Source: Firmicutes bacterium HGW-Firmicutes-4 (lineage in GTDB: Bacteria > Bacillota > Clostridia > Eubacteriales > Eubacteriaceae). From it: 46,310 nucleotides of DNA. The notes under the pieces were generated by a model. That model did not search any database, was not told the DNA's origin, and saw only the letters and a program-made list of their open reading frames with translations. A program made the position numbers and the translations under genes. This document shows positions 931-35,456 of this stretch, one piece after another; positions within the stretch are counted from its first letter, which is position 1, and every line of letters starts with the position of its first letter. Location: positions 1-46,310 of the forward strand of contig PGZR01000010.1 in NCBI GenBank assembly GCA_002841405.1, written 5' to 3'.

Positions 931-2262
931 ATGAATATTTGTATAATTGGACTGGGTATTTTAGGAATTACCTATGGTTCTGTTTTGTCCGATTCGGATG
1001 TGAATGTTATCTGCGTCGACACCGATGAAGAAACAATCAATATGCTCACCGAGGGTGAATTGCCGATTTATGAGCCGGGGTTAAAGGCGCTGGTGTCGAC
1101 TTCAGTATCAACCGGCCGACTATACTTCAGCTCGAATATTCAAAGTGCCATTAAAAAGAGCGAAATTATTTTCATAACCTGCGAAGTACCGACCAATGAT
1201 CATGATTTTCCGGATCTTCGTTTTATGAAACCAATCGCCCAAAGCATTGGCAATCATATCGAAGCCTATGTAACCGTTGTGATCAAATCGACGGTACCGC
1301 CGGGTACCTGCCAGATCATTAAACAAACCATTAAAAAAGCTCTTGATGACCGGGAGGCGGATATTCCCTTTGATGTTGTCAGTAATCCTGATTTTGCCCG
1401 CAAAGGCTCGATGATTAAGGATTGTCTGGTGCCGGATATGGTCGTGATCGGATCGGATTCGCCGGCAGCGGTGGAACGATTAAAAAGTGTTTATGACAGC
1501 CTTCATGTCCGGGAAGAAAACTATGTGATCACCGATCCTCAGAGTGCCGAAATGATCAAATACGGAGTGAATGCCTTTCTGGCCACAAAGCTCTCCTTTA
1601 TTAATGAGATGGCTTTGCTGTGTGAAAATGCCAATGCCAACATCCTCGATGTTTCCAATGGCATGGGCCGGGACGAGCGGATTGGTCCCGGCTACCTGGA
1701 AGCGGGCCCAGGTTATGGGGGCAGTGACCTGCCTAAGGATTCCAAGGCGTTGGTGGAGATTGCCAAAGCCTATGGTGAGGATTTTATGGTGCTCAAAGGG
1801 GCCATCCAGGCTAATGAGAAACAAAAGAACAAAATGGTGGAAAAAATCAAACGGATTATGGGCAATCTGGAAGGAAAAACCATCGCCGTTTTAGGTCTGT
1901 CCTACAAACCGGAAACCACGGATATGCGGGAAGCTCCTTCGATCACGATTGTCAAAGGTCTGGTTGGCGATGGGGCCAAGATCCAGATTTACTGTCCGGA
2001 AGGAAATCTGGAAGCCAAATGGCGCTTGCATAACGAAAAAGATGAGATTAGCTACTGTAATGACGTCTATGAGGCGGCTCAAAATGCCGATGCCCTAGTG
2101 CTGATTACCAGTTGGCGGGAATTCAAGGGAATGGATCAGGAGCGGGTTCGGGCAGCCATGAAGGATCGCTTTTTCTTTGATTTTAGAAATCTGTTTGGGG
2201 ATGAACCACCAAAAGGCTTTGTTTATTCAGGTCTGGGGATTCCGGAAAAGGAGATAAAATAA
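931..2262 (+). CDS. UDP-glucose/GDP-mannose dehydrogenase family protein with altered active site
   Basis: The 443-residue protein has the three-part architecture of UDP-glucose 6-dehydrogenases. It has an N-terminal NAD-binding fold beginning with GLGILG, a central domain with KSTVPPGT (119-126) and the K210/N214 pair, and a C-terminal domain with AVLGLSYKPETTDMREAP. The family normally oxidises UDP-glucose to UDP-glucuronate through a thioester on a catalytic Cys in GGSCFPKD. Here that motif reads GGSDLPKD, so Asp266 (codon at 1726-1728) replaces the Cys. The upstream NPEFLREG motif reads NPDFARKG, so two conserved glutamates are Asp154 and Lys158. The fold and family are clear, but normal four-electron oxidation is doubtful. 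It could be a pseudoenzyme, a two-electron enzyme or one with a different substrate. The start follows GGAGG, and galU begins one base after its stop. Confidence 0.9.
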   Translation: MNICIIGLGILGITYGSVLSDSDVNVICVDTDEETINMLTEGELPIYEPGLKALVSTSVSTGRLYFSSNIQSAIKKSEIIFITCEVPTNDHDFPDLRFMKPIAQSIGNHIEAYVTVVIKSTVPPGTCQIIKQTIKKALDDREADIPFDVVSNPDFARKGSMIKDCLVPDMVVIGSDSPAAVERLKSVYDSLHVREENYVITDPQSAEMIKYGVNAFLATKLSFINEMALLCENANANILDVSNGMGRDERIGPGYLEAGPGYGGSDLPKDSKALVEIAKAYGEDFMVLKGAIQANEKQKNKMVEKIKRIMGNLEGKTIAVLGLSYKPETTDMREAPSITIVKGLVGDGAKIQIYCPEGNLEAKWRLHNEKDEISYCNDVYEAAQNADALVLITSWREFKGMDQERVRAAMKDRFFFDFRNLFGDEPPKGFVYSGLGIPEKEIK

Positions 2263-2263
2263 A

Positions 2264-3142
2264 ATGAAAAAAGTTCGTAAAGCAGTTATTCCAGCGGCTG
2301 GGTTGGGTACCCGATTTTTACCAATTACCAAGTCGACGCCGAAAGAAATGCTACCGATTGTGGATAAACCCACGATCCAATATATTATCGAAGAAATTGT
2401 GGCATCGGGGATCGAAGAGATACTCATTATCAACGGCCGCAATAAAGAAAGCATCATCAATCACTTTGACAAGGTTCCAGAACTGGAAGCCCTGTTAAAA
2501 GCCGGCGGCAAAACCGAGGCGTTGGAGCAAGTAGAAGCCATCACAAACATGGCGAAAATCTTTTCAGTACGCCAGAAAGAGGCTAAAGGCCTGGGACATG
2601 CGGTGCTTTGCGCCAAAGAATTTGTGGGCGATGAACCCTTTGCGGTGGTGTTAGGTGATGATATTGTTTACAATGATGGAACTCCGGCCCTGAAGCAAAT
2701 GGTGGATGTCTATAATAAATATGGGGCGTCGGTAATCGGGGTTCAGCAGGTTGCTCCTGACCAGGTCAACAAGTACGGTATCGTTTCCGGGGATGCTGTT
2801 GGGGAACGGGTGTATCAGGTCAATGATCTGGTTGAGAAGCCGGCCATCGGCACTGCGCCTTCCACCATGGCTATTTTAGGACGCTATATCATTACACCGG
2901 GAATATTTGATGTGCTTGAGCAGACTGGCAAAGGCGCCGGTGGTGAAATTCAACTCACGGATGGACTTAAAACCCTGGCGACCATCGAAAAGATGTTTGC
3001 CTATGATTTTATCGGTAAACGTTATGATGTCGGAGACAAGCTTGGCTTTCTTCAGGCTACCGTGGAATACGGCTTAAGGGATAATAAACTGGGTGCAGAT
3101 TTTAAACAATATTTAGAAACTTTATTAAGCGACAACATATAA
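2264..3142 (+). CDS. galU: UTP--glucose-1-phosphate uridylyltransferase
   Basis: The 292-residue enzyme makes UDP-glucose from UTP and glucose 1-phosphate in the cytoplasm. The nucleotide-binding signature GLGTRFLP is at residues 13-20, followed by the KEMLPIVDKP substrate loop. VLGDDIV is the metal-binding segment and EKP a further conserved sugar-site motif. Length and composition match bacterial GalU rather than the dTDP-glucose enzyme RfbA at 7851. It is one base downstream of the 931 gene and shares its GGAGATAAAAT ribosome-binding region, so the two are probably translationally coupled. With the mutase at 3215 it forms the route glucose 6-phosphate to glucose 1-phosphate to UDP-glucose. 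Confidence 0.96.
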   Translation: MKKVRKAVIPAAGLGTRFLPITKSTPKEMLPIVDKPTIQYIIEEIVASGIEEILIINGRNKESIINHFDKVPELEALLKAGGKTEALEQVEAITNMAKIFSVRQKEAKGLGHAVLCAKEFVGDEPFAVVLGDDIVYNDGTPALKQMVDVYNKYGASVIGVQQVAPDQVNKYGIVSGDAVGERVYQVNDLVEKPAIGTAPSTMAILGRYIITPGIFDVLEQTGKGAGGEIQLTDGLKTLATIEKMFAYDFIGKRYDVGDKLGFLQATVEYGLRDNKLGADFKQYLETLLSDNI

Positions 3143-3214: not shown

Positions 3215-4918
3215 ATGGACTATAAAAAAGCATATCAAAACTGGTTGGATCAGCCGGAGCTGGATGCCGAACTGCGGCAGGAACTGGAAGCCATCAACGA
3301 TGAAAAAGAAATAGAAGACCGCTTTTATGCCGACCTGGAATTTGGTACCGGTGGCATGCGGGGGAAAATGGGTGTTGGCAATAACCGCATGAACATTTAC
3401 ACTGTGGCCAAGGTTACCTATGGTTTGGGAAAATACCTGCTGCGGCAGGATATTCAGAACTGGGAAAAGGGTGTCGTCATTGCCTATGATTCTCGTCACA
3501 ATTCCAGAAAATTTGCGGAAACAGCAGCCGGGGTGCTAGGCAAAATGGGGGTAGCCGCTTACCTTTTTGAAGAGTTGAGGCCAACTCCGGAACTGTCTTT
3601 TGCAGTCCGGGAGCTGAAAGCCGCCGGCGGCATTGTCATCACGGCATCTCATAACCCCAAAGAATACAATGGCTATAAGGTCTATGGTCCAGATGGCGGT
3701 CAGATGGTAACCGTTTCGGCCGATGCTTTAATCGCCGAAATTGCCAAAATACCGGATATCTTTGATATTCCGATTATGACATTGGCGGAAGGCCTCAATC
3801 AGAAAATTATTAAGATGGTCGGCGAAAAAATGGATAACGCTTTTACGGTCGCCGTGACATCGATTTGTATGCCTAATCCCAACAGTGAAGTGAAAGTAGT
3901 TTATACTCCGCTTCATGGTTCGGGCAATCAGCCGGTACGGCGGGTCTTGGCGGAATTAGGTTATCAGCAGGTGACCGTGGTACCGGAACAGGAATTGCCG
4001 GATGGTGATTTTACCACCGCTCCTTATCCAAATCCGGAAGATCGTTCGGTCTTTACTCTGGCCATGGCTCTGGCCGATGAATGCGGAGCGGACATTATTA
4101 TTGGCACTGACCCTGATTGCGATCGGGTGGGAGTGGTTGGCCGGAATCAACAAGGCGAGTTTGAGATTTTTAGCGGGAATCAAACCGGCGCTCTGCTGGT
4201 TGATTATTTCCTCAAAACCCGAACCGAGCTGCCAGAAAATAAGGTTGTTATCAAAACAATCGTCACCAGTGAACTGGGCGGGATTGTGGCAAAATCCCAT
4301 GGCGCTGCAGTAATGGATGTGCTAACCGGCTTTAAATACATTGGCGAATTAATGACTGAGTTTGAGAAGACCGGCGATCATACCTTCGCCTTTGGCTATG
4401 AAGAGAGTTATGGTTATCTGGCCGGAAACTATGCCCGGGATAAGGACGCGGTAGTGGCGTCAGCCCTGGTTTGTGAAATGACGGACTACTATAAAAAACA
4501 GGGCAAGACGCTGTATCAAGCCCTGATTGATTTGTATGAGAAACATGGCTATTTTATTGAAGATGTGGTGGCCTTAACGCTTGAAGGCATCACGGGCAAA
4601 ACAAAAATTACCGCAATCATGGAGAATTTCAGAACGGTCAGCTTCCCCGGTTTTGCCGATGCTAAATTGATTAATTTTAATGATTATGAAGCGGGTATCA
4701 GCAATGACATGGTGTCGGGAGTAAAAACAGCAATTGATCTGCCCCGGTCAAATGTACTGAAATTTGTTTTTGACGACTATTCCTGGTTTGCCTTGCGCCC
4801 ATCAGGGACAGAACCCAAGCTGAAGATTTATTTCTCAGTCACCGGTAAAACCCGGGAACAAGCAACGGCGAAAAAAGAACTGCTGAAAAAGCAGGTAACG
4901 GATTTAATCTCAATGTAA
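3215..4918 (+). CDS. alpha-phosphoglucomutase / phosphomannomutase
   Basis: The 567-residue protein is an alpha-D-phosphohexomutase of the PgcA type, interconverting hexose 6- and 1-phosphates. The phosphoserine loop TASHNP puts the catalytic serine at residue 145. The metal-binding motif DPDCDR is at 299-304. The sugar-binding loop EESYG is at 396-400, and the phosphate-binding loop RPSGTEPK lies near the C-terminus. All four domains are present and the length is normal. The ATG has a GAAAGGA ribosome-binding site, 72 bases after galU, in the same direction, so it is likely in the same transcript. Preference for glucose over mannose is inferred from the neighbouring galU. Confidence 0.93.
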   Translation: MDYKKAYQNWLDQPELDAELRQELEAINDEKEIEDRFYADLEFGTGGMRGKMGVGNNRMNIYTVAKVTYGLGKYLLRQDIQNWEKGVVIAYDSRHNSRKFAETAAGVLGKMGVAAYLFEELRPTPELSFAVRELKAAGGIVITASHNPKEYNGYKVYGPDGGQMVTVSADALIAEIAKIPDIFDIPIMTLAEGLNQKIIKMVGEKMDNAFTVAVTSICMPNPNSEVKVVYTPLHGSGNQPVRRVLAELGYQQVTVVPEQELPDGDFTTAPYPNPEDRSVFTLAMALADECGADIIIGTDPDCDRVGVVGRNQQGEFEIFSGNQTGALLVDYFLKTRTELPENKVVIKTIVTSELGGIVAKSHGAAVMDVLTGFKYIGELMTEFEKTGDHTFAFGYEESYGYLAGNYARDKDAVVASALVCEMTDYYKKQGKTLYQALIDLYEKHGYFIEDVVALTLEGITGKTKITAIMENFRTVSFPGFADAKLINFNDYEAGISNDMVSGVKTAIDLPRSNVLKFVFDDYSWFALRPSGTEPKLKIYFSVTGKTREQATAKKELLKKQVTDLISM

Positions 4919-5070: not shown

Positions 5071-5610
5071 CTAATTAACTGTTTCCGTAGCCGTGCCGTC
5101 GCTGGCACTGTCTTCTCCGGTTGAATCGGAATTGGATGAATCGGATGAGTCGGATGAGTCAGAATCACTGCCGGAATTGGAGTCAGAACCAGTGTCAGAA
5201 CCGGAAGAACTGCTATCCGAACTGGAGGAGTCTGTTCCAGGTGAGCTTGAGCTATCGGAAGAACCCGATCCAGAGGATTCTGTATTTGAATAAGAAGAAT
5301 CAGTATTGCTGTAATCGGAATAATCGCTGCTACTGTCACTGGGACTGGATTCAGTGTAAGAGGATGAACCGGTGCCAGCATAATAGGCAATGGCATCACT
5401 GATTTCTTTTACTCGCGCTGATGGAACATAAGCCGTATAGGTGCTTGTACCAGCGCTGGTTCCAACTGAAGTGTTGGAGTTTGAACTGGTGGTTGGACTA
5501 TTGACGTTGGTTCGGTTTCCGTTGCTGGTTGAGGTGCTGTCGGTACTGCTGCTATCCGCTGCGGTGGATGAACTGCCGCTGACAGCGGTTGTATCAGTCG
5601 TGGTTGTTGT
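5071..5610 (-). repeat. low-complexity Ser/Asp/Thr-coding tract
   Basis: This stretch codes for the C-terminal tail of the LCP protein and consists of irregular, degenerate serine, aspartate and threonine codons. Such tracts change length easily. The long open frames on the opposite strand here are by-products of the biased composition. Confidence 0.75.
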
Positions 5611-6570
5611 CTGGATCGGACCATAGATAAAGGCATGGAGGGCAATGACATTATCAGCTAAGCTGGTCGGAACCACATATGAAACACTATTGATCATGGC
5701 TGTTGTTACATGAGTATCGGTGGGCAGTCTAAACTCCAGAAATTGCTTGTCCGGGGATTCTAAAAACGCCTTGGCATAGGTTGTCAGCTCGCTGATTGAA
5801 AGGGTTGTTTTAATATAGGGATAAACCTTGCTTAACAGACTGATGCCGGTAGCCATATCGATGTTGAAGGCTTTGTCGGCAATTTGACCGACAACTTCGC
5901 GCTGTCGTTCGGTTCGATAAAAGTCATCATCGCTAAAACGGTTTCGGGCATAGGCCAGCGCCTGAACGCCAGTGATGGTTTGCACCCCGGTTGTTTCAAG
6001 ATAGGGATCGGCTTTACCAACCTTGTCATTAACATCATCAATGTATTTATTGGTCCATTCCAGGACATCTTCGTTTTGAACATTGACTTCAACGCCGCCC
6101 AGGGCGTCAACGGTATCGACCATGGCGTCAAAATTCACAATCACATAGTCTTTGATATTCAAATCAAAATTTTCGTTCAGGGTTTTTACAGCAAGCTCTG
6201 GTCCGCCATAGGCATAGGCGGCATTTATTTTATCAAGACTTTCATAGGTGTCTTTAGTTTCGGGGATCTGGACCAATAAGTCACGCATCACTGAGGTAAC
6301 CTTGATGTTCCCGTTTCGGAAATCCATGGAGACGATCATAATAGTATCGGTACGATCACCTTCAATGTCGCTGCGCCCATCAACTCCAAAAACAGCAATA
6401 TTGATGGTATCAATATCCAGGTCGTTATTGACCTTTAAGTCGGCCTCATCCATTTTCGGTTCAGCGACCATCTCATTTATTTGGCTGATGGTATTAAAGC
6501 CATATACTAGTCCGGTGCCTATTAGTGAGACGATCAGAAATAGGATGACTAAAACTATTTTCTTTTTCAT
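5071..6570 (-). CDS. LytR-CpsA-Psr (LCP) family glycopolymer ligase with Ser/Asp-rich tail
   Basis: The 499-residue protein has an N-terminal membrane anchor (about residues 5-25) and an extracellular LCP domain (about 55-230). LCP enzymes transfer undecaprenyl-linked glycopolymers to peptidoglycan. The family's charged active-site residues are visible: VDGR at 63-66, GDRTDT at 71-76, MRD at 95-97, DKINAAYAYGG at 113-123, RNR at 209-211 and the RTERQR run at 219-224. A linker to about residue 320 is followed by some 180 residues dominated by Ser, Thr and Asp, which is not part of the usual family. The minus-strand ATG has an AAAGGAA ribosome-binding site. It is divergent from the rhamnose genes. 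A second LCP protein (31753-33018) flanks the other end of the polysaccharide locus. Confidence 0.92.
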   Translation of the reverse strand: MKKKIVLVILFLIVSLIGTGLVYGFNTISQINEMVAEPKMDEADLKVNNDLDIDTINIAVFGVDGRSDIEGDRTDTIMIVSMDFRNGNIKVTSVMRDLLVQIPETKDTYESLDKINAAYAYGGPELAVKTLNENFDLNIKDYVIVNFDAMVDTVDALGGVEVNVQNEDVLEWTNKYIDDVNDKVGKADPYLETTGVQTITGVQALAYARNRFSDDDFYRTERQREVVGQIADKAFNIDMATGISLLSKVYPYIKTTLSISELTTYAKAFLESPDKQFLEFRLPTDTHVTTAMINSVSYVVPTSLADNVIALHAFIYGPIQTTTTTDTTAVSGSSSTAADSSSTDSTSTSNGNRTNVNSPTTSSNSNTSVGTSAGTSTYTAYVPSARVKEISDAIAYYAGTGSSSYTESSPSDSSSDYSDYSNTDSSYSNTESSGSGSSDSSSSPGTDSSSSDSSSSGSDTGSDSNSGSDSDSSDSSDSSNSDSTGEDSASDGTATETVN

Positions 6571-14843: not shown

Positions 14844-14901
14844 CGCTACAACTATAAGTGTTATGACATCGGGTAAAAATTTTAAAGAAAGGAGGAAAAT
14901 A

Positions 14902-17733
14902 ATGGAGCATGTTAAAAACAGAAGAAAGCAGATTGCTTTTGGGGTGATCGTCATCCTGACACTATTTACTTTCTTTTCATATTTTAGTGTGACGGTTAAT
15001 GCGGCCAGCACCACAATCGTGGTTAATCCGGGACATTTAGATGGTACCGATCCTGGGGCAGTGAATAGCAGCAACGGGATACGCGAGGTGGATCTTAATA
15101 ATGCCCTGGCAATTAAAATCGTTGCAACGCTTAGAGCAAGTGGTTATAATGCCCTGTTGAGCCATCCCGTTCCGGGTAATCCCGGGTTGCCAACGATGTT
15201 AGCATCAAGTCCGGTTTATTCAGTATTCTCGACTACCATTTGTAACAAAGCGAATCAAATTGGGGCAGATTTGCTAATCAGTGTTCATCACAATGCTAGC
15301 AGCGACAAGACAGCCAGCGGTTATGAACTCTATTGGAGCAGTTATCATCCCACAGTTGATAATAATGGTATTTACCAGAAAACTGGATTGTGGGGCGATG
15401 GGTCGACTGCTGATTTAGATGCAACACCGCCAACGATTGCTTTAAAATCAAAAGAACTGGCAAATTTATTCAATGAAAACTTTAAAAGTCTGGGCTATGT
15501 ACCCAGTCGGAACAAGGTTGTTGAACGGGATGATGCCATTACGCGGAAAACAAGCATGCCCTCGGTACTGATTGAAGCCGGTTTTGTTTCGAATCCAACT
15601 GAAGCAGTAAAGATGGCCGACGGATCAAATCAACAGAAAATGGCCGATCAGGTTCTGATCAGTGTCAGTGAGCTTTTTGGGACGTCAACAACGCCAATGT
15701 CTGCCAGCAGTTTTACCGCCACGGTTAATGGGGATAAAATCACAGCAACAGTAGAAGGCGTTTCAGCACCCAATGGATTACAGGTTATTTATATACCAAC
15801 CTGGAGTGATAAGGGTGGACAGGACGATTTGAAATGGTACACCGCAACCAAACAAAGTGAGGGCAGTTACAGTGTTACCTTAGATGTTAAAGATCATGGT
15901 TTCGAAAGCGGAGATTACCAATTACACTGTTATGGTGTAGATTCTGATGGTAAATATACTTTGTTGGGAAATACAACTGCGACTGTTATTTCGTCGGTGC
16001 AGGATAAGATGTTGGCAACCAGTGTAACGGCCGGCGTATCTGGCAATAACATTACGGCAACGGTCAAAGGGATAATAGCCCCGAACGGTATCACTTCAGT
16101 ATCGATACCAATCTGGAGCGAAAGCGGCGGTCAGGATGATCTCAAATGGTATACTGCAACCAAACAAACGGATGGTAGCTACAAGGTGATCATTGACATC
16201 AAAGATCATAATTATGATGGTGGCAGCTATAATATTCACGCATATGGAACAGATAGCAACAATAAAATGACGTTTTTGGGCAGTACAACGGCAACCGTAA
16301 AAGTAAATACAATGACAGCCTCCAGCGTTACCGGTACTGTTTTAGGCAGTAAAATCACCGCAACAGTCAAAGGGATAACCGCACCAAACGGTATCACGGA
16401 GATGACACTGCCAATCTGGAGTGAAAATGGCGGCCAGGATGATATAAAATGGTATACAGCGACGAAACAGACAGATGGCAGTTATAAAATCACCATTGAC
16501 ATCAAGGATCATAATTATGATGGTGGAACCTACCACATCCATGCTTATGGTAAAGACAGCAATGGAAAAATGACTTTTGTCGGTTCGGCAACAGCAAATA
16601 TAATTGTTGAGCCCATGACGGCAACCAGTGTTACCGCAAGCGTCGCCGGGAATAAAATTGCAACGACTATTAAGGGAATTCATGCACCGAGTGGAATTAA
16701 GTCAATTTCAGTACCAATCTGGAGTGATGTAAATGGACAAGATGATTTGAAGTGGTACACCGCCACCAAACAAAGTGACGGCAGTTACAGTATCACTATT
16801 GATATCAAAGATCACAATTATTCAGGTGGAACCTATAGTATCCATGCTTATGGAACAGATACTAATGGTAAGATGACATTTTTAGGAAATACTTCAGTGA
16901 GCCTGGCGACAACTCCGATGTCGGCAACAACAGTAACAGCCACCGTATCAGAAAATATTATTACTGCGACGGTTAGCGGAATAACAGCCCCAAATGGGAT
17001 CAACAGTATTTTGATTCCAACCTGGAGTGAAGCCAATGGCCAGGATGACATTAGATGGTACACGGCTACCAAAAAAAGTGATGGCAGCTATCAAATTATG
17101 ATAGATGCTAAAAATCACAATGGCGATAGTGGTTCCTATTTCATTCACGCCTATGGAGTGGAAACAGATGGACGATCCGTATTTCTTGGCAATACGTCGG
17201 TTAGTGTTCGATATGTAGAAACCCCAATTATGGGTGCAACGACAGTGACGGCGGCTCAGTTGGTAGCTTATTATAAGGGAACAGGAAGCACATACCCGCA
17301 GATTTACAATGATCTGGGCGTGAATCTGGAGACCTTTGTTGGGCTCTATATCAGTGAGTGTAACGCCGAAGGCGTTCGAGCTGAGGTTGCCTTTGCTCAG
17401 GCAATGCTGGAAACCGGAAACCTTCAATTTGGTGGAGACGTTAAACCAGCACAATTTAATTTTGCCGGTTTGGGTGCCACTGGAGGTGTTCCAGGTTACG
17501 ATTTTGCAACGGTCTATGGATATAACAAGGTCGGGCTTCAAATCGGAATCAGAGGACACGTACAGCATTTAAAATGTTATGCCAGCAGTGCGGCCTTGAA
17601 TCAAACCAAGGTTGATCCGAGATGGAATGATTCGCTGCGGTTAAGAGCCATTTCAGTTGAAGAACTGGCAGGAACTTGGGCAGCTGACACGACCTATGCG
17701 GGCAAGGTAAAAACGATTATGAAAAAGTTTTAG
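14902..17733 (+). CDS. secreted N-acetylmuramoyl-L-alanine amidase with five GBS-Bsp-like repeats and a GH73 domain
   Basis: The 943-residue protein is a double peptidoglycan hydrolase. A signal peptide (residues 1-35, ending in VNA) is followed by an Amidase_3 domain (about 38-255). Its zinc and catalytic residues are visible: His45 in NPGH, Glu62 in IREVD, His129 in SVHHNA and Glu225 in IEAGF. Five tandem repeats of about 101 residues begin at residues 266, 370, 471, 572 and 673. They match the GBS Bsp-like repeat, with a conserved core such as PIWSE..GQDD.KWYTATKQ. The last domain (777-943) resembles the glucosaminidase (GH73) fold, with likely catalytic Glu837 in QAMLETGN. I chose the ATG at 14902 because AAAGGAGG precedes it. 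An in-frame ATG at 14863 lacks such a site. The gene has its own promoter and terminator. Confidence 0.92.
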   Translation: MEHVKNRRKQIAFGVIVILTLFTFFSYFSVTVNAASTTIVVNPGHLDGTDPGAVNSSNGIREVDLNNALAIKIVATLRASGYNALLSHPVPGNPGLPTMLASSPVYSVFSTTICNKANQIGADLLISVHHNASSDKTASGYELYWSSYHPTVDNNGIYQKTGLWGDGSTADLDATPPTIALKSKELANLFNENFKSLGYVPSRNKVVERDDAITRKTSMPSVLIEAGFVSNPTEAVKMADGSNQQKMADQVLISVSELFGTSTTPMSASSFTATVNGDKITATVEGVSAPNGLQVIYIPTWSDKGGQDDLKWYTATKQSEGSYSVTLDVKDHGFESGDYQLHCYGVDSDGKYTLLGNTTATVISSVQDKMLATSVTAGVSGNNITATVKGIIAPNGITSVSIPIWSESGGQDDLKWYTATKQTDGSYKVIIDIKDHNYDGGSYNIHAYGTDSNNKMTFLGSTTATVKVNTMTASSVTGTVLGSKITATVKGITAPNGITEMTLPIWSENGGQDDIKWYTATKQTDGSYKITIDIKDHNYDGGTYHIHAYGKDSNGKMTFVGSATANIIVEPMTATSVTASVAGNKIATTIKGIHAPSGIKSISVPIWSDVNGQDDLKWYTATKQSDGSYSITIDIKDHNYSGGTYSIHAYGTDTNGKMTFLGNTSVSLATTPMSATTVTATVSENIITATVSGITAPNGINSILIPTWSEANGQDDIRWYTATKKSDGSYQIMIDAKNHNGDSGSYFIHAYGVETDGRSVFLGNTSVSVRYVETPIMGATTVTAAQLVAYYKGTGSTYPQIYNDLGVNLETFVGLYISECNAEGVRAEVAFAQAMLETGNLQFGGDVKPAQFNFAGLGATGGVPGYDFATVYGYNKVGLQIGIRGHVQHLKCYASSAALNQTKVDPRWNDSLRLRAISVEELAGTWAADTTYAGKVKTIMKKF
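15697..17229 (+). repeat. five tandem GBS-Bsp-like repeat units (about 303 bp each)
   Basis: Units start at 15697, 16009, 16312, 16615 and 16918. Units 2 to 4 are closest to one another in protein and DNA. Each encodes a beta-rich module with a WS...GQDD..WYTA centre and a DGSY...KDHN turn. The function of these modules is not established, and wall or glycan binding is a reasonable inference. Confidence 0.9.
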
Positions 17734-17745
17734 ATGAAAAAGAGG

Positions 17746-17776
17746 CAGAGCTGAAGAAATTCAGCTCTGTTTTTTT
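17746..17776 (+). terminator. intrinsic terminator after the amidase gene
   Basis: CAGAGCTGAA (17746-17755) pairs perfectly with 17760-17769 across a four-base loop, followed by seven Ts. Confidence 0.92.
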
Positions 17777-17787
17777 ATCAACTTCAC

Positions 17788-17817
17788 TTGACGCCGGGAA
17801 TAGTTCAATGATAGGGT
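17788..17817 (+). promoter_or_regulatory. possible promoter of the M23 peptidase gene
   Basis: A good -35 (TTGACG at 17788-17793) is followed, after 18 bases, by a poor -10 (TAGGGT). It lies after a terminator and before a gene, so some promoter is expected here. Confidence 0.4.
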
Positions 17818-17853
17818 AGTGATAAGTTGAAGGATTATTACGAGGGAGAAGAA

Positions 17854-19860
17854 ATGATAAAAAGCGCGGACAAGAAAAGTTGGAAAAAACCATTAATCAT
17901 TTTTGGGATATTCATTTTGCTTTTTTCACCGGGTCAAATTATAGCACAGGAAATGACAGAATCTGCTGGTCAGGGAAATATGTTAACAGAAGAAACGCCA
18001 CTGTTGCCTGATACAGAAGCAGATCAAATAAGCGAAAATTCAGAAGCGACGGAAGACGTCCCAGAAAATAATAGTTTGGATTTACAGACAGATGAAGGGG
18101 AAAAATCAACTACTGAGGAGGAAAAGACTGTTGAGGAATCGACAGAACGATCAGCGATTTATCTGGATATAAACGATTTACAAGTAAACGTCACACCAGT
18201 TGCAGAAAATAAGACTCAGTTTACCATCAGTACTGTCGGTTGTGCTGGAAAAACCGGGATTGGCAAGGTTATGTTTCCCACCTGGACAGAACGAAATGGA
18301 CAGGACGAAATACGTTGGTATGAGGGCATACTCAATAGTAATGGTGAATACAGTATTACTGTGGATAGTAAAGACCACGGCTTTGAAACAGGGGAATATC
18401 ATGTCCATACCTATATTTATGGAGTAATGGGGGAAGTTGCTAAAACATATACCACTAGATACAATCTAGAAAAGCCTAATCCATCAATTAGCGTCAGCGA
18501 AGTAGCGAACAATAGCTATAAAGTTCGAGTAGTTGGGGTGAGTAATCCGAGTGGCGTTGTAAGTGTAAAATTTCCCACCTGGAGTCAGCTGAGTGGACAT
18601 GATGACTTGCGCTGGGAGTCTGGTATTTATGTGGGAAATGACACCTGGGAAGCAACCATTTCAATAAATGATTACAAATGCAGTTATGATACATTTATCA
18701 CGCACACTTATGTAACAGATAAAGATGGACAGCAAAAGTATATTGGCGCGGTTGACCAAATTATCAGCAATCCATTCTTAGCGGAACCGCTAGAAATAAA
18801 AACTCAGCAGGATCGAGATGTATCAAAGTTTTCAATCAGTACTCAAAATTGTGTGGCAAAAACTGGTGTTAAGAGTGTTGTTTTTGCCGTGTGGTCGAAT
18901 CGAAATGGACAAGATGAATTAAGATGGTATGAGGGGGAGTTGGGCCCCGATGGCGAATTTTACGCTTATGTTGACATTGAAAACCATGGCTTTGAATCAG
19001 GCGCTTATGTTACCCACGCTTACTTGCGGGGAACGCGGGGAGAAAACATTGCTTTCGCCAATGCAGAATTTATCATGCCAAATATCAACCCATCCATTGA
19101 ATCTGATAAAGCGGTGCTCAATAATATTTTTAAAATACGAATCAAGAATGCGAGCACTGAAAACGGGGTGTCCAGAATTATGATTCCGACCTGGAGCCTA
19201 ACAAATGGTCAGGATGATGTGCGGTGGGAGACGGCCACCTATATTGGAAATCATACCTGGGAAGCCACTATTAATCTGCGTAACTATAATATTATTGTTG
19301 ATGATTTCATTTCACATGTTTATCTGATCGATCAGAACGGAACATATCATTTTTCGAAAGCTGCAACAAAGAAAATCTTGCAGAATACCGCCACTATTTA
19401 TGGTTTTTTCAATTATCCCCTGGATAAAAATTACAAAGCAAATGCTGGTGATCCCACTGATTGGTTTGGACCCCGATGGGGTGATATCCACGAAGGAATT
19501 GATATCCCAGCCCCCTATAATGCCCCCTGCTATGCGGTTGGCAATGGCGTCGTTGAAAAGGCTGGTTATTTTATGGGATATGGGCGCTATGTTAGAATAC
19601 GAACCACCGATCGATATGGTGAAAGTGTCTCTTTCTTTTATGGCCACCTTCAGGAGATCAATGTGGGTGTGGGACAATCTGTAAGTAAGGGCCAAAAGAT
19701 TGGTTCAGTTGGAGGATCGGGTTATAATGCCCAAGGCAAGTACATTGATAATGCCTATGGCCCTCACCTTCATTTTGGAGCAATTGTCAATGCCGATTAC
19801 GCCTGTGTCGATCCGGAAATATGGATTGACTTTCACAACCCTTACAGTAATGCAAATTGA
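17854..19860 (+). CDS. secreted M23 family metallopeptidase with four GBS-Bsp-like repeats
   Basis: The 668-residue protein has a signal peptide or anchor (hydrophobic at about 13-30) and an acidic Glu/Thr-rich linker to about residue 100. Four repeat modules related to those of the preceding amidase follow, with cores such as PTWTERNGQDEIRWYEG. Residues from about 515 are a C-terminal LytM/M23 domain. The zinc-site motifs are intact: His546 and Asp550 in HEGID, and His640 in HLHF. M23 enzymes cut peptide cross-links of peptidoglycan. The ATG at 17854 follows GAGGGAGAA. The upstream in-frame TTG at 17827 is less well placed. With the amidase it forms a pair attacking different wall bonds through the same targeting module. 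Confidence 0.92.
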   Translation: MIKSADKKSWKKPLIIFGIFILLFSPGQIIAQEMTESAGQGNMLTEETPLLPDTEADQISENSEATEDVPENNSLDLQTDEGEKSTTEEEKTVEESTERSAIYLDINDLQVNVTPVAENKTQFTISTVGCAGKTGIGKVMFPTWTERNGQDEIRWYEGILNSNGEYSITVDSKDHGFETGEYHVHTYIYGVMGEVAKTYTTRYNLEKPNPSISVSEVANNSYKVRVVGVSNPSGVVSVKFPTWSQLSGHDDLRWESGIYVGNDTWEATISINDYKCSYDTFITHTYVTDKDGQQKYIGAVDQIISNPFLAEPLEIKTQQDRDVSKFSISTQNCVAKTGVKSVVFAVWSNRNGQDELRWYEGELGPDGEFYAYVDIENHGFESGAYVTHAYLRGTRGENIAFANAEFIMPNINPSIESDKAVLNNIFKIRIKNASTENGVSRIMIPTWSLTNGQDDVRWETATYIGNHTWEATINLRNYNIIVDDFISHVYLIDQNGTYHFSKAATKKILQNTATIYGFFNYPLDKNYKANAGDPTDWFGPRWGDIHEGIDIPAPYNAPCYAVGNGVVEKAGYFMGYGRYVRIRTTDRYGESVSFFYGHLQEINVGVGQSVSKGQKIGSVGGSGYNAQGKYIDNAYGPHLHFGAIVNADYACVDPEIWIDFHNPYSNAN

Positions 19861-27776: not shown

Positions 27777-29501
27777 ATGGCATCGACAGGTTCTGGAACA
27801 GAAACGAATCGGTTGCGGATATTTTTTAATAAATATCGGTTAGTGATTTTCATGATTGGTTTTATTATAATTAAACAATTATTAGTCATTGGTATGCCAC
27901 TATTTGCTCATGCTGGGGCAGGACATGATGATCGCTTAATGATCAATATGGCAGACTCTTTAAGCAATGGAGCGTGGTTAGGCGAATACTCCGAAAAAAC
28001 GCTGGTAAAGGGTTTGTTCTTTCCGCTTTTTTTGGTAGCAAATGATGTTTTAGGCATACCTTATTCGCTGTCGATCCCAGGAATTTATTCCCTTGCCTGT
28101 ATGAGCTTTGTTTTTGGAATAAAACGACTATTTCAGACAGAGTTTCCGCTCTTTATTATTTTTTTAGCACTGCTATTCAATCCGATCTCATTCGCTGATG
28201 AAACCTTTCTTCGGGTCTACCGAAATGGTTTAACGGCCACCCAGGCATTAATTATCAGCGGCAGCATGTTTGCCGTTTACCTGACTCGTTTTGAAAAAAA
28301 ACGGTTTCAAATTCTGTGGGCGATTAGTGCGGGGCTTGGACTGGCTTCCCTTTGGCATACTCGGGAAGATGGCATCTGGATTATTCCGTTGGTATTGGGA
28401 GTAATTGTTATTACGTCGATATCCATCATTTTGCAAAAAGAACTGCAGACAAAGGATAAGGTGAAGAAAACAATCATCACTGTCATACCGGTGATGATAC
28501 TGATAGTGTCCACCATCATTATTTCTAGTATTAACTACGCTCATTATGGAGTCTATACCTCCAATGAGTTGAATAAAAGCAATTTTACTAATGCTATCAA
28601 GTTGATCTATTCCGTGGCAGCAAATGAAGAGGTTGAGCGGGCAGCAGTCCCCCGAAGTACGATTTCAAAAATCTATGAGGTATCACCGACACTTAATACG
28701 ATTAAAGAAGAATTGGAATCAAGTCTGGATCGCTGGTCCTGGTATGAAAAAGATGCGAAGGTGCGACAAGTCGAAGACGGATTTTTCTTTTGGGCCTTGA
28801 GAGAAGCGGTCGCTAATGCCGGCTATTACGAAAATGCGGTAAAAGCAAATGATTTTTATGAAAATTTAGCCAAAGAACTAGAAGTCGGATTTGAAAGCGG
28901 CGAGTTAAATCGCAGATCAACGATGCCATCAGCACTGATGTCTCCCTGGCGGGATGGATACTGGGAAGAATTGCCAATTGCTTTTTTTAGAACCATCAAT
29001 TATGTTGTCAGATTTGAAGCGATTAAAACCAGTATGACCGACAGCATCGATGATGGGAAGAATGGAATCTTGCTTTTTGAAGAAATGACAAACAATTCGG
29101 CTCGGATCAAAGGGGAACCAATTTCATTGGGTGTTCAAGTCAGGCTGGCGCTTTTAAATGGCATCACCGGAATTTATCAAATCATTGGGTTCATTGCCTT
29201 TGTTGCGGCTATTTTAGCTTATGGACTGATTTCAATTTTTATATTCATAAAAAAATTGCGAAATAAATATGGACTGATGGATTGCTGGCTGGTACTATCC
29301 GCTTTGCTATTTAGCGCATGTGTTTTAGCTGGCGGTGTTGCCTATACCGATATTTCTGCTTATGTGGCCATTTCATACTGGTATCTGGCTGGAGCTTATC
29401 CATTAATCATTGCATTTAATGCGATTGCGCTTTATAAAATAACAGAAATATTCGTTAAAATGATTTATGAGAAAAAAAGGGACAAAATCAAATCAGATTG
29501 A
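27777..29501 (+). CDS. polytopic membrane protein, GT-C-like glycosyltransferase candidate
   Basis: The 574-residue protein has about ten hydrophobic segments. Just after the first is a loop with AGAGHDDRLM, an acidic pair placed as in GT-C glycosyltransferases. A large extracytoplasmic region (about 270-430) is inserted before the last membrane group. I do not recognise a named family. The ATG follows GAGGG. Its 3' end nearly meets the first SMR-like gene, which starts seven bases after its stop. Confidence 0.7.
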   Translation: MASTGSGTETNRLRIFFNKYRLVIFMIGFIIIKQLLVIGMPLFAHAGAGHDDRLMINMADSLSNGAWLGEYSEKTLVKGLFFPLFLVANDVLGIPYSLSIPGIYSLACMSFVFGIKRLFQTEFPLFIIFLALLFNPISFADETFLRVYRNGLTATQALIISGSMFAVYLTRFEKKRFQILWAISAGLGLASLWHTREDGIWIIPLVLGVIVITSISIILQKELQTKDKVKKTIITVIPVMILIVSTIIISSINYAHYGVYTSNELNKSNFTNAIKLIYSVAANEEVERAAVPRSTISKIYEVSPTLNTIKEELESSLDRWSWYEKDAKVRQVEDGFFFWALREAVANAGYYENAVKANDFYENLAKELEVGFESGELNRRSTMPSALMSPWRDGYWEELPIAFFRTINYVVRFEAIKTSMTDSIDDGKNGILLFEEMTNNSARIKGEPISLGVQVRLALLNGITGIYQIIGFIAFVAAILAYGLISIFIFIKKLRNKYGLMDCWLVLSALLFSACVLAGGVAYTDISAYVAISYWYLAGAYPLIIAFNAIALYKITEIFVKMIYEKKRDKIKSD

Positions 29502-33301: not shown

Positions 33302-33871
33302 ATGGCAAATGAACAGGAACTCAATGAAAAAAATGAGTACTTCGAATATGTTGAATCACGCATTGAAAATTTAGAAAAGTTGATTTTGAAAAAAGATGAA
33401 GAATTAAAATCGCTCATCCTCAGAACCGTTCAAAACGGGGCATCGCAGCCTGAGAAAAACCTGCACAGGGAGAAGTCACAACGACCTGATCCAGGGAATT
33501 TCGAGCGGGTGTTCGAAGATTTGAAGGAAGAAGAAACCCGCTTTTTGAAAAACGAAGGCGAGCTTCCCAATTATAAGGCTGAAGAACTCAATAACCAACT
33601 GGCCAACATCGAAAAACGGGAGAAAATGGTTCAGGATATGCTGGATTCATTGGGGACAGCCCTGGCCATTTTGAAAAAACGCCACGAAGAAGTGAATCGA
33701 AAAGAAGAGACGCTGAATCGCGAGTATCAGAAGCTTCAAGAAATTGAAGCACTGTATCGGAGTACTGAAGGTTTAGACGCATTGACTTCAACCTTTGGGC
33801 AGATTTCAATCGATGGCGGAAGTTCTCAAGAAAACGGCAGAACCTCCTCCAATAATGACAGCAAGGAGTGA
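33302..33871 (+). CDS. coiled-coil protein of unknown function
   Basis: The 189-residue protein is hydrophilic and highly charged, with heptad-like stretches at about 8-45 and 85-155 (for example RIENLEKLILKKDEEL). It has no signal peptide, no membrane segment and no recognised motif. The ending is Ser/Asn-rich. The next gene starts four bases after its stop and also has long coiled-coil regions, so the two products may bind each other. The start has a GGAGTGGGG site. I do not recognise the family. Confidence 0.75.
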   Translation: MANEQELNEKNEYFEYVESRIENLEKLILKKDEELKSLILRTVQNGASQPEKNLHREKSQRPDPGNFERVFEDLKEEETRFLKNEGELPNYKAEELNNQLANIEKREKMVQDMLDSLGTALAILKKRHEEVNRKEETLNREYQKLQEIEALYRSTEGLDALTSTFGQISIDGGSSQENGRTSSNNDSKE

Positions 33872-33875
33872 TTTG

Positions 33876-35456
33876 ATGAGATTAAGTTTTGGTAAATGCT
33901 GGGGTCTGTTGATTTTTGATATCATTGGATTGGCGATCTCTGGTTATGCTTTTTTATTGGGCTATCAGGTAATAGCGACACTTGCGAACGCAAATGCCTA
34001 TATTGTTCTGATGGGATTTTTTGTGGGGATCAAGGCAATTATTTTGGCTTTATACGATTTGAACAGAAACATGCTGCGGAAGAATATTCCCTTCATTGGC
34101 GGAGGGATCACAATTCTGGGGAATGGCATTATATTTGCAATGTGTTTTTTTCTGATTCCAGAAGTACCACTGACATTTTTTATTGGTTTAGCCATTGCGG
34201 ACTTTATGATTATCACCCTCTGCCATCTGTTATGGTGGGTTCTCATCGGTAAAGATGATAATCAGCCCAAAGAAACCAAATTACCGGCAAAAGAAGAGCG
34301 TGCGTCTAAACAAGAGAATAAGAAAGTCTCAAAAAAAGACCTGAAAAATGAAAAGAAAAACGAATCCGGAAAAGTGAATAAAAATTCAGGAAAAAAAGTG
34401 AAAAGTGAGAAAAAAACCTGGTTATCCCGGGATGAGGAAGAGGAATCGGAATACGACAGTATCTTTACCAGCCTGCTGGAAAACGAAAAAAGAGGCCAGC
34501 AACGCTATGTGGAATCTCCTAAAGCCGATGAGCCAAGAGTTTTTGAAGAAGAAAAACGTTATCAAACCAGTGACTTTCTCAATGAGATCAAGGAAAATTT
34601 AAAAAAAGAAAATAAACTGTCGATGGAGCAAACTACAGTGCAAGACGGAGTCGTGATGAAGCCTGCGAATCAGGAATTTACTCTATCACCAGGAAAAAAA
34701 CCAACGGGATTACCTGTCATGGAATCAGCTCAGAACATTGAAGCAGGGATTGAGTCAAAACCGTTAATCAATAATCAGCCAGTTAGCGAGACCATTATCC
34801 TGCCAACGCAGTTACTAGAAGAGACAAACCCAATTTTGCTGGAGAACAGTGCTGATCTTTTTGGTGATTTACCAACGATCAAAGAAAGAAAACCTGATTT
34901 TCAAAAAATGGAGTCTTCAAATTTAGGTCCTTCTGGAATCGAGACGATAGAAATAGGTGACAATGAAGAAGGCTTTCTCTCGATTGAGCGCCGACTAGGC
35001 TATCTATTTCATGAAATTGAGAAATCAATGAAGGAAACCCAATACCTTCAAGGAGCAATCAGTAATTTTCAGAAGGAAGTGGAAAGCTATGAACCCATTG
35101 CCGGCGATGAAAAAATTGTTGCGGCCGGAAATCTGATTCGCGAAAAACTGAAAATGATCATCGATAAACAATTCGTTGTAGATGAGGTTCTCGATGATCT
35201 GATTCGCCTATCCAAACTGATCAATAAACGAATCAATGATTTAGATATTATTGAAGAGGGACTGAACCAGCGCAAGATCGCATTGGATCAAAAGGACTTG
35301 CTAATTGTTGAAGCCCGAAGCCGGAACACGGTGGAGAAAGAAGTGGCAATTCTGCCCGAAGAAGTGGTGCTGGAAAATTTAGACTCTGAGTTCATCGTTG
35401 CCGAAGGTGATTATGAATCGATCCGGAAATATCTGACCGAAAATCCGGAAGAATAG
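33876..35456 (+). CDS. four-helix membrane protein with long charged and coiled-coil cytoplasmic part, unknown function
   Basis: The 526-residue protein has four membrane helices in its first 125 residues (about 9-31, 40-60, 72-94, 99-125). A Lys/Glu-rich stretch follows (130-200), then a low-complexity linker and a predicted coiled coil from about 370 to 490. The four-helix block is weakly reminiscent of the N-terminal membrane domain of CapD/WbpM-type sugar enzymes, but no enzyme domain follows. I chose the ATG at 33876 because AAGGAG lies upstream and the family-like start MRLSFGKC leads straight into helix 1. An upstream in-frame ATG at 33795 lies inside the previous gene. Role unknown; a scaffold linking membrane and cytoplasm is only a guess. 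Confidence 0.75.
   Translation: MRLSFGKCWGLLIFDIIGLAISGYAFLLGYQVIATLANANAYIVLMGFFVGIKAIILALYDLNRNMLRKNIPFIGGGITILGNGIIFAMCFFLIPEVPLTFFIGLAIADFMIITLCHLLWWVLIGKDDNQPKETKLPAKEERASKQENKKVSKKDLKNEKKNESGKVNKNSGKKVKSEKKTWLSRDEEEESEYDSIFTSLLENEKRGQQRYVESPKADEPRVFEEEKRYQTSDFLNEIKENLKKENKLSMEQTTVQDGVVMKPANQEFTLSPGKKPTGLPVMESAQNIEAGIESKPLINNQPVSETIILPTQLLEETNPILLENSADLFGDLPTIKERKPDFQKMESSNLGPSGIETIEIGDNEEGFLSIERRLGYLFHEIEKSMKETQYLQGAISNFQKEVESYEPIAGDEKIVAAGNLIREKLKMIIDKQFVVDEVLDDLIRLSKLINKRINDLDIIEEGLNQRKIALDQKDLLIVEARSRNTVEKEVAILPEEVVLENLDSEFIVAEGDYESIRKYLTENPEE

Follow-up and report, generated by a model that had tools for sequence, protein, structure and literature searches.

A galU-linked clade of UDP-glucose dehydrogenase-like proteins without the catalytic cysteine in Acetobacterium and a sister genus

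We have identified a conserved clade of UDP-glucose dehydrogenase (UGDH)-like proteins in which every member examined has lost the catalytic cysteine. The clade occurs in Acetobacterium and one sister genus, is under purifying selection, is closely linked to galU and has a fold that is predicted to be intact. Together these features favour, at what we judge to be about an even chance, a reading in which the clade would no longer perform UDP-glucuronate chemistry and would act as a non-catalytic or partly catalytic nucleotide-binding regulator or scaffold of the Pgm-GalU route. The available text of PMC4794789 gives 18 residues, the catalytic cysteine among them, as invariant in 229 NDP-sugar dehydrogenase sequences, and a literature search, with subscription papers outside its scope, found no description of a nucleotide sugar dehydrogenase clade lacking it. 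The interest of these proteins is that a clade without so invariant a residue is conserved and sits in a UDP-glucose gene cluster. Additionally, the series from canonical through half-lost to mostly lost active sites provides material for studying the conversion of an enzyme into a regulator or a two-electron catalyst.

The window, the whole 46,310-nucleotide stretch of DNA analysed here, belongs to a draft assembly of 3.73 Mb in 225 contigs that is 86% complete. We assign it to Acetobacterium on the basis of named records in which the same UGDH-like protein occurs at up to 97% identity (A. dehalogenans). The gene begins at an ATG preceded by GGAGGA and follows a gene that reads as atpC; beyond galU and pgm lie a convergent LytR-CpsA-Psr gene and then rfbD, rfbA, rfbC and rfbB (atpC and the rfb genes named by recognition). 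A promoter and terminator scan returned 10 promoters against a shuffle mean of 7.5, with nothing above the shuffles for promoters. Elsewhere in the window, the LytR-CpsA-Psr protein (5071-6570, minus strand) carries a very long low-complexity tail rich in Ser, Asp, Thr and Gly, an adjacent pair of cell-wall hydrolase-like genes (14863-19860, plus strand; Amidase_3 plus Glucosaminidase / Peptidase_M23) has GBS Bsp-like repeats common to both, and two open reading frames of 574 and 553 residues (27777-29501 and 33795-35456, plus strand) have no Pfam matches at 0.001.

Table 1. Features of the UGDH-like gene and its downstream neighbours in the window (reference numbering in brackets)
Feature	Position	Strand	Basis
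UGDH-like protein (443 aa) that lacks the catalytic Cys	931..2262	+	Three Pfam domains, AlphaFold2 model, Foldseek
Ile10 for Tyr10	958..960	+	Alignment
Cys84-Glu85-Val86: Val86 for Thr83; Cys84 gained	1180..1188	+	Alignment
NPDFARKG: Asp154 for Glu141, Lys158 for Glu145	1384..1407	+	18/18 Acetobacterium rows
Lys210 and Asn214 (Lys204/Asn208) kept	1558..1572	+	18/18 Acetobacterium rows
GGSDLPKD: Asp266 for catalytic Cys260; Asp270 (Asp264) kept	1717..1740	+	Alignment
galU, UDP-glucose pyrophosphorylase	2264..3142	+	1 base past UGDH-like stop; TIGR01099 cut-off passed by same-place homologues in G001 and G023
pgm, phosphohexomutase	3215..4918	+	Named by recognition

Family membership and active-site residues

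By its domains the protein is a member of the UDPG/GDP-mannose dehydrogenase superfamily. The Pfam UDPG_MGDP_dh N, central and C domains matched with E-values of 3.7e-51, 4.8e-30 and 1.7e-28, at 173.8, 104 and 99.4 bits against cut-offs of 27, 25.4 and 30. The NCBIfam nucleotide sugar dehydrogenase model TIGR03026 was also passed (396 bits against 189.8), as it was by the Cys-less homologues L049, L052 and L024. Thus, predictions of UDP-glucuronate or capsule synthesis drawn from that general name may be wrong for these genes. The NCBIfam TuaD equivalog gave 432.6 against a cut-off of 700, on a model for which the sole canonical relative scored, L003, is a protein of another type. AlphaFold2 models reached a mean pLDDT of 95.2 for the window protein and 93.2 for L049 of the sister genus, and the top Foldseek row for each was a solved UDP-glucose dehydrogenase at a query TM of 0.94 (2y0d_D for the window protein), so the fold is predicted to be intact in both.

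Judged by its residues, the protein would nevertheless fall outside the functional UDP-glucose 6-dehydrogenases. Residues were numbered by the S. pyogenes enzyme and compared with a canonical set of 34 aligned relatives; 11 of the 38 non-Acetobacterium match rows have no locus and lie outside this inspected set. The first-pass annotation, made from the window alone, had read aspartate in place of the catalytic cysteine, Asp154 and Lys158 in place of two glutamates, and three residues (Lys210, Asn214 and Asp270) as kept, and the alignment bears out each of these readings, with the kept residues present in all 18 Acetobacterium rows. The codon at 1726-1728 is GAC, and the Cys260 position holds Asp in 18/18 Acetobacterium rows, Ile (four) or Asp (one) in the sister genus and Cys in 34/34 canonical rows. 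Canonical rows have Glu141 without exception (34/34) and either Glu (26) or Gln (8) at position 145. We take human Glu161 to be the equivalent of Glu141. Both glutamates had been described as central to the second oxidation; this holds for Glu141, and Glu145 is not clearly tied to that step, since it is the human Glu161 mutant that was crystallised with a thiohemiacetal (available text of PMC3184952).

Two further changes lie beyond that annotation. One is at the equivalent of Tyr10, to which the available text of PMC4794789 attributes the hydrolysis of the thioester; the other is at the equivalent of Thr83, a contact of the nicotinamide ribose according to the same text. Tyr occupies position 10 in 32 of the 34 canonical rows; the 18 Acetobacterium rows have Ile (15), Val (2) or Met (1) there, and the five of the sister genus have Val (4) or Leu (1). 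All 23 clade rows have Val86 at the Thr83 position, which is Thr in 33 canonical rows and Ser in one, and Cys84 is present in 23/23 clade rows versus 0/34 canonical rows.

Much of the remaining site is retained. The window protein keeps the first-oxidation residues Thr118, Lys204, Asn208 and Asp264. All 18 Acetobacterium rows have the UDP-glucose contacts Lys326 (Lys320), Arg250 (Arg244) and Arg419, the last of which we assume to align with human Arg442 and to share its UDP-glucose-contact role, and the Acetobacterium form also retains the half of the NAD site that serves the ADP moiety (GxGxxG, Asp30 and Arg333). On a site list picked once the alignment had been seen, 39 of 39 positions were invariant. 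Of the 18 family invariants, the window protein keeps 15 (Thr83, Glu141 and Cys260 are lost) and the sister-genus proteins L048 and L052 keep 10 and 9; 31 of the 34 canonical rows keep them all.

Conservation, selection and ancestry

The UGDH-like gene is present in 18 of 19 Acetobacterium genomes (71-100% identity), and all 18 homologues carry the Asp154/Lys158/Asp266 set. Codon 266 is GAC in six and GAT in 12; thus the codon drifts and the residue stays. Using pairs with dS under 1.5, the UGDH-like gene (11 of 18 genes compared, giving 10 usable pairs of 55) and galU (nine genes, 12 of 36 pairs) both had a median NG86 dN/dS of 0.041; for pgm the median was 0.060 (10 genes, 12 of 45 pairs). 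The gene is therefore maintained by selection in this genus. Its median dN exceeds that of galU (0.134 versus 0.066), partly because the galU set is without the two most distant genomes. One genome assigned to Acetobacterium (G006; 2.2 Mb, listed as 98% complete) gave no match to the UGDH-like gene and has no galU either.

At a threshold of 1e-60, 23 of the 67 genomes searched in the order gave a match, and these belong to two of 26 genera. The second genus contributes five genomes, whose homologues (L048-L052) share 38-46% identity with the window protein; the corresponding value for galU is 74-77%. These homologues directly precede galU, and the locus also includes pgm in all four genomes checked for it. 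They share with the Acetobacterium form the loss of the catalytic cysteine (GGSILPKT in four, GGSDMPKG in L052), Cys84, Val86 and the downstream galU. Unlike that form, they have also lost Lys204 (Asp in four, Ser in one), Asn208 (Ser in five), Asp264 (Thr or Gly), Lys320 (Asp) and the residue corresponding to human Arg442 (Gln). Losses thus affect both oxidation steps in the sister genus, and the second step plus the NAD contact Thr83 in Acetobacterium.

In three close genomes of the sister genus (three of six pairs usable), dN/dS was 0.060 for the UGDH-like gene, 0.034 for galU and 0.033 for pgm. Given the residues lost, this value suggests a protein that could hardly be a dehydrogenase yet is kept in close genomes. 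Between two deeper branches (G023 versus G026) the protein evolves fast: dN was 0.404 for the UGDH-like gene, 0.085 for galU and 0.121 for pgm, at dS values of 1.5, 1.1 and 1.4 that are near saturation, and constraint on the UGDH-like gene looks weaker there.

That the aspartate form might be a conserved clade had been raised for the window protein, and the trees uphold it. Acetobacterium and sister-genus rows form one clade at 100/100, inside the Cys-bearing TuaD-type enzymes, in two trees: one of 61 rows (18 Acetobacterium and five sister-genus, with 25 of 86 aligned rows omitted as duplicates or spare outgroups) and one of 39 rows (12 Acetobacterium, three sister-genus and 24 canonical, with L052, L024 and far outgroups omitted). 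Both runs carry a warning that long branches meet. In the second tree, an AU test rejected a grouping of Acetobacterium with Paenibacillus and Spirochaetes (p-AU 3.3e-5). The shared gains Cys84 and Val86 agree with one clade, with the caveat that their columns, like that of Tyr10, stayed in the trees when three motif stretches were omitted. Both trees reject cysteine losses in the two genera as unrelated lineages. As Asp occurs both in Acetobacterium and in L052, parsimony suggests that Cys to Asp was probably the first step.

Searched across the class, a degenerate GGSDLPKD pattern occurred in five of 391 genomes, four of them Acetobacterium and the fifth with a stop codon in the frame; within this sample the aspartate form is thus not widespread in the class. 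Viral contigs gave no relative. A separate Cys-less UGDH-like protein of Acetobacterium (L024; G018:C18:18220-19467) has Thr at the cysteine position, His at Tyr10 and Gln at Thr118, and keeps 14 of the 18 family invariants. It falls outside the clade, on a long branch of unsure place in the first tree, and lies near a GHMP-kinase-like open reading frame (by recognition) that suggests a heptose cluster; it is possibly an NDP-heptose oxidoreductase.

Linkage to galU and pgm

In 21 of the 23 genomes that carry the UGDH-like gene, galU lies downstream in the same order, its start 4 to 23 bases from the match end with the stop included (approximate, as measured from match ends). Among canonical loci, two of 34 have galU in the flank, upstream on the same strand for L066 and downstream on the same strand at about 0.95 kb for L067; most of the flanks covered span about 1.5 kb, and three extend to at most 8 kb. 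Close linkage is thus typical of the Cys-less form. The phosphohexomutase gene pgm comes after galU in both the window and L087; in A. bakii (L043) galU is present and pgm is absent within 8 kb.

The two exceptions, G011 and G012, have pgm directly after the UGDH-like gene and no galU at 1e-60. With TIGR01099, whose cut-off is 326.8 bits, they reached at best 43.9 and 43.2, on a control that gave signal in 14 of 14 genomes and passed the cut-off in five, and a divergent pyrophosphorylase in these genomes is possible. A search for a eukaryote-type UDP-glucose pyrophosphorylase returned no match in G012, with a control that was silent in all 14 genomes. G012 is a single contig at 100% completeness, and G011 is 85% complete. 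In the first tree they diverge before the remaining 16 Acetobacterium rows, which group at 88/93, and their UGDH-like copies differ by a dN of 0.083 with dS saturated. G012, with no galU above the TIGR01099 cut-off, nonetheless has a Cys-bearing UDP-glucose dehydrogenase homologue (L025). As both genomes keep the UGDH-like gene, GalU is not its sole partner there, and a role as a regulator of GalU only is weakened.

Possible function and comparison with known enzymes

Features expected of a pseudoenzyme are found in this clade: catalytic residues have been lost throughout it, and the gene is kept by selection in both genera, more weakly towards G026. The earlier expectation of another role is upheld as likely. 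Its three proposals, another product, another substrate or a regulator, no longer stand level: since the sister-genus relatives are without first-oxidation residues, weight moves away from another product and towards a regulator or pseudoenzyme.

On our preferred reading, of a UGDH-derived protein kept for nucleotide binding, the Acetobacterium form would bind UDP-glucose through Lys326, Arg250 and Arg419 and the ADP half of NAD through the retained GxGxxG, Asp30 and Arg333, and might act on UDP-glucose supply as a regulator or scaffold that responds to ligand. Asp266 could mimic the product carboxylate, pairing with Lys210 and Asn214 to hold a product-like state, and Lys158 may bring positive charge near the diphosphate, both as putative contacts. 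In the sister genus the UDP-sugar site would be largely gone, leaving little beyond the fold and the ADP-binding half of the NAD site. Several observations count against this reading. The first-oxidation and UDP-binding residues are fixed in 18/18 Acetobacterium rows, which argues against a mere scaffold; galU occurs with no UGDH-like match at 1e-60 in 12 genomes from the family's other genera; constraint is in places weaker than on the neighbours; the canonical gene L067 is also upstream of galU; and no further family member was found in G014, where the UGDH-like protein could thus still act as the UDP-glucose dehydrogenase.

More tentatively, and with a chance that we place well short of even, the ancestor of Acetobacterium and the sister genus may have turned a UGDH into a dedicated sensor of nucleotide sugars and NAD that, from within the galU-pgm cluster, adjusts how much UDP-glucose is supplied. 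The active site would then have died stepwise, first by replacement of Cys with Asp, a stage at which Acetobacterium retains the ligand site, and then by loss of most of the site in the sister genus. The new, fixed Cys84, which lies two residues away from the position that contacts the nicotinamide ribose, would be a possible redox switch.

Catalytic alternatives differ in how much chemistry they retain. A two-electron NDP-sugar oxidoreductase in Acetobacterium seems to us doubtful, though the most credible of them: Asp270, Lys210, Asn214 and Thr121 would carry out a single oxidation, at C6 of UDP-glucose or at a secondary alcohol of another NDP-sugar, and without the cysteine the product would leave as an aldehyde or ketone, or the enzyme would run as a reductase. 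The lost residues do include the second half of the reaction (Tyr10, Glu141 and Cys260), with the first half kept and fixed in all 18 rows. LmbL is a member of the UDPG/GDP-mannose dehydrogenase family that makes a ketone. In lincomycin synthesis it is listed as a dehydrogenase for a step from GDP-octose (available text of PMC12945683). However, Thr83, which the available text of PMC4794789 counts among the residues invariant in 229 sequences, is lost, clade members in the sister genus are without the residues for such chemistry, and among the neighbours read by eye there is no obvious user of a 6-aldehydo sugar. An improbable variant is a four-electron UGDH without the cysteine, in which Asp266 would activate water and the aldehyde would be oxidised as its hydrate, giving UDP-glucuronate without a covalent step. 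The human C276A enzyme can oxidise the aldehyde (available text of PMC3184952), so the second step does not strictly require the cysteine, and G014, at 99% completeness, has no other family member at 0.001. On the other side, Tyr10, Glu141, Glu145 and Thr83 are changed too, and the source genome of the window holds two Cys-bearing paralogues (L003 and L004, with SPEFLREG/GGYCLPKD).

Those paralogues could be partners if the protein were a regulatory subunit of canonical UGDHs acting through mixed dimers. Arg244, which reaches the partner's site, is kept in Acetobacterium, as are Glu201, Lys204, Asn208 and Asn219, invariant residues of the dimer-contact helix; but the paralogues share 24-27% identity with the UGDH-like protein, making mixed dimers unlikely, and neither G014 nor the less complete G007 and G008 has another family match, so we regard this as very improbable. 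A decaying gene or sequencing error has next to no probability. Five functional residues are changed and constraint is weaker between G023 and G026, but the same residues recur in 18 genomes with open frames and a dN/dS of about 0.04, and we reject this explanation for Acetobacterium. The first-pass view that a well-conserved protein one base from galU is not simple decay thus stands.

Among known systems, the TuaD-type UGDHs (solved as 3gg2, BceC 2y0c-e and UgdG 4a7p) have all three Pfam domains in common with the UGDH-like protein; their Foldseek rows show 36-39% identity and query TM values of 0.91-0.95 to the window protein, which retains most of their NAD and UDP-glucose contacts. Unlike them, it is without Cys260, Tyr10, Glu141, Glu145 and Thr83. 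GalF of E. coli likewise belongs to the UDP-glucose route, and its catalytic role has been disputed, according to the available text of PMC4643126; it is, however, a relative of GalU and not of UDP-glucose dehydrogenase.
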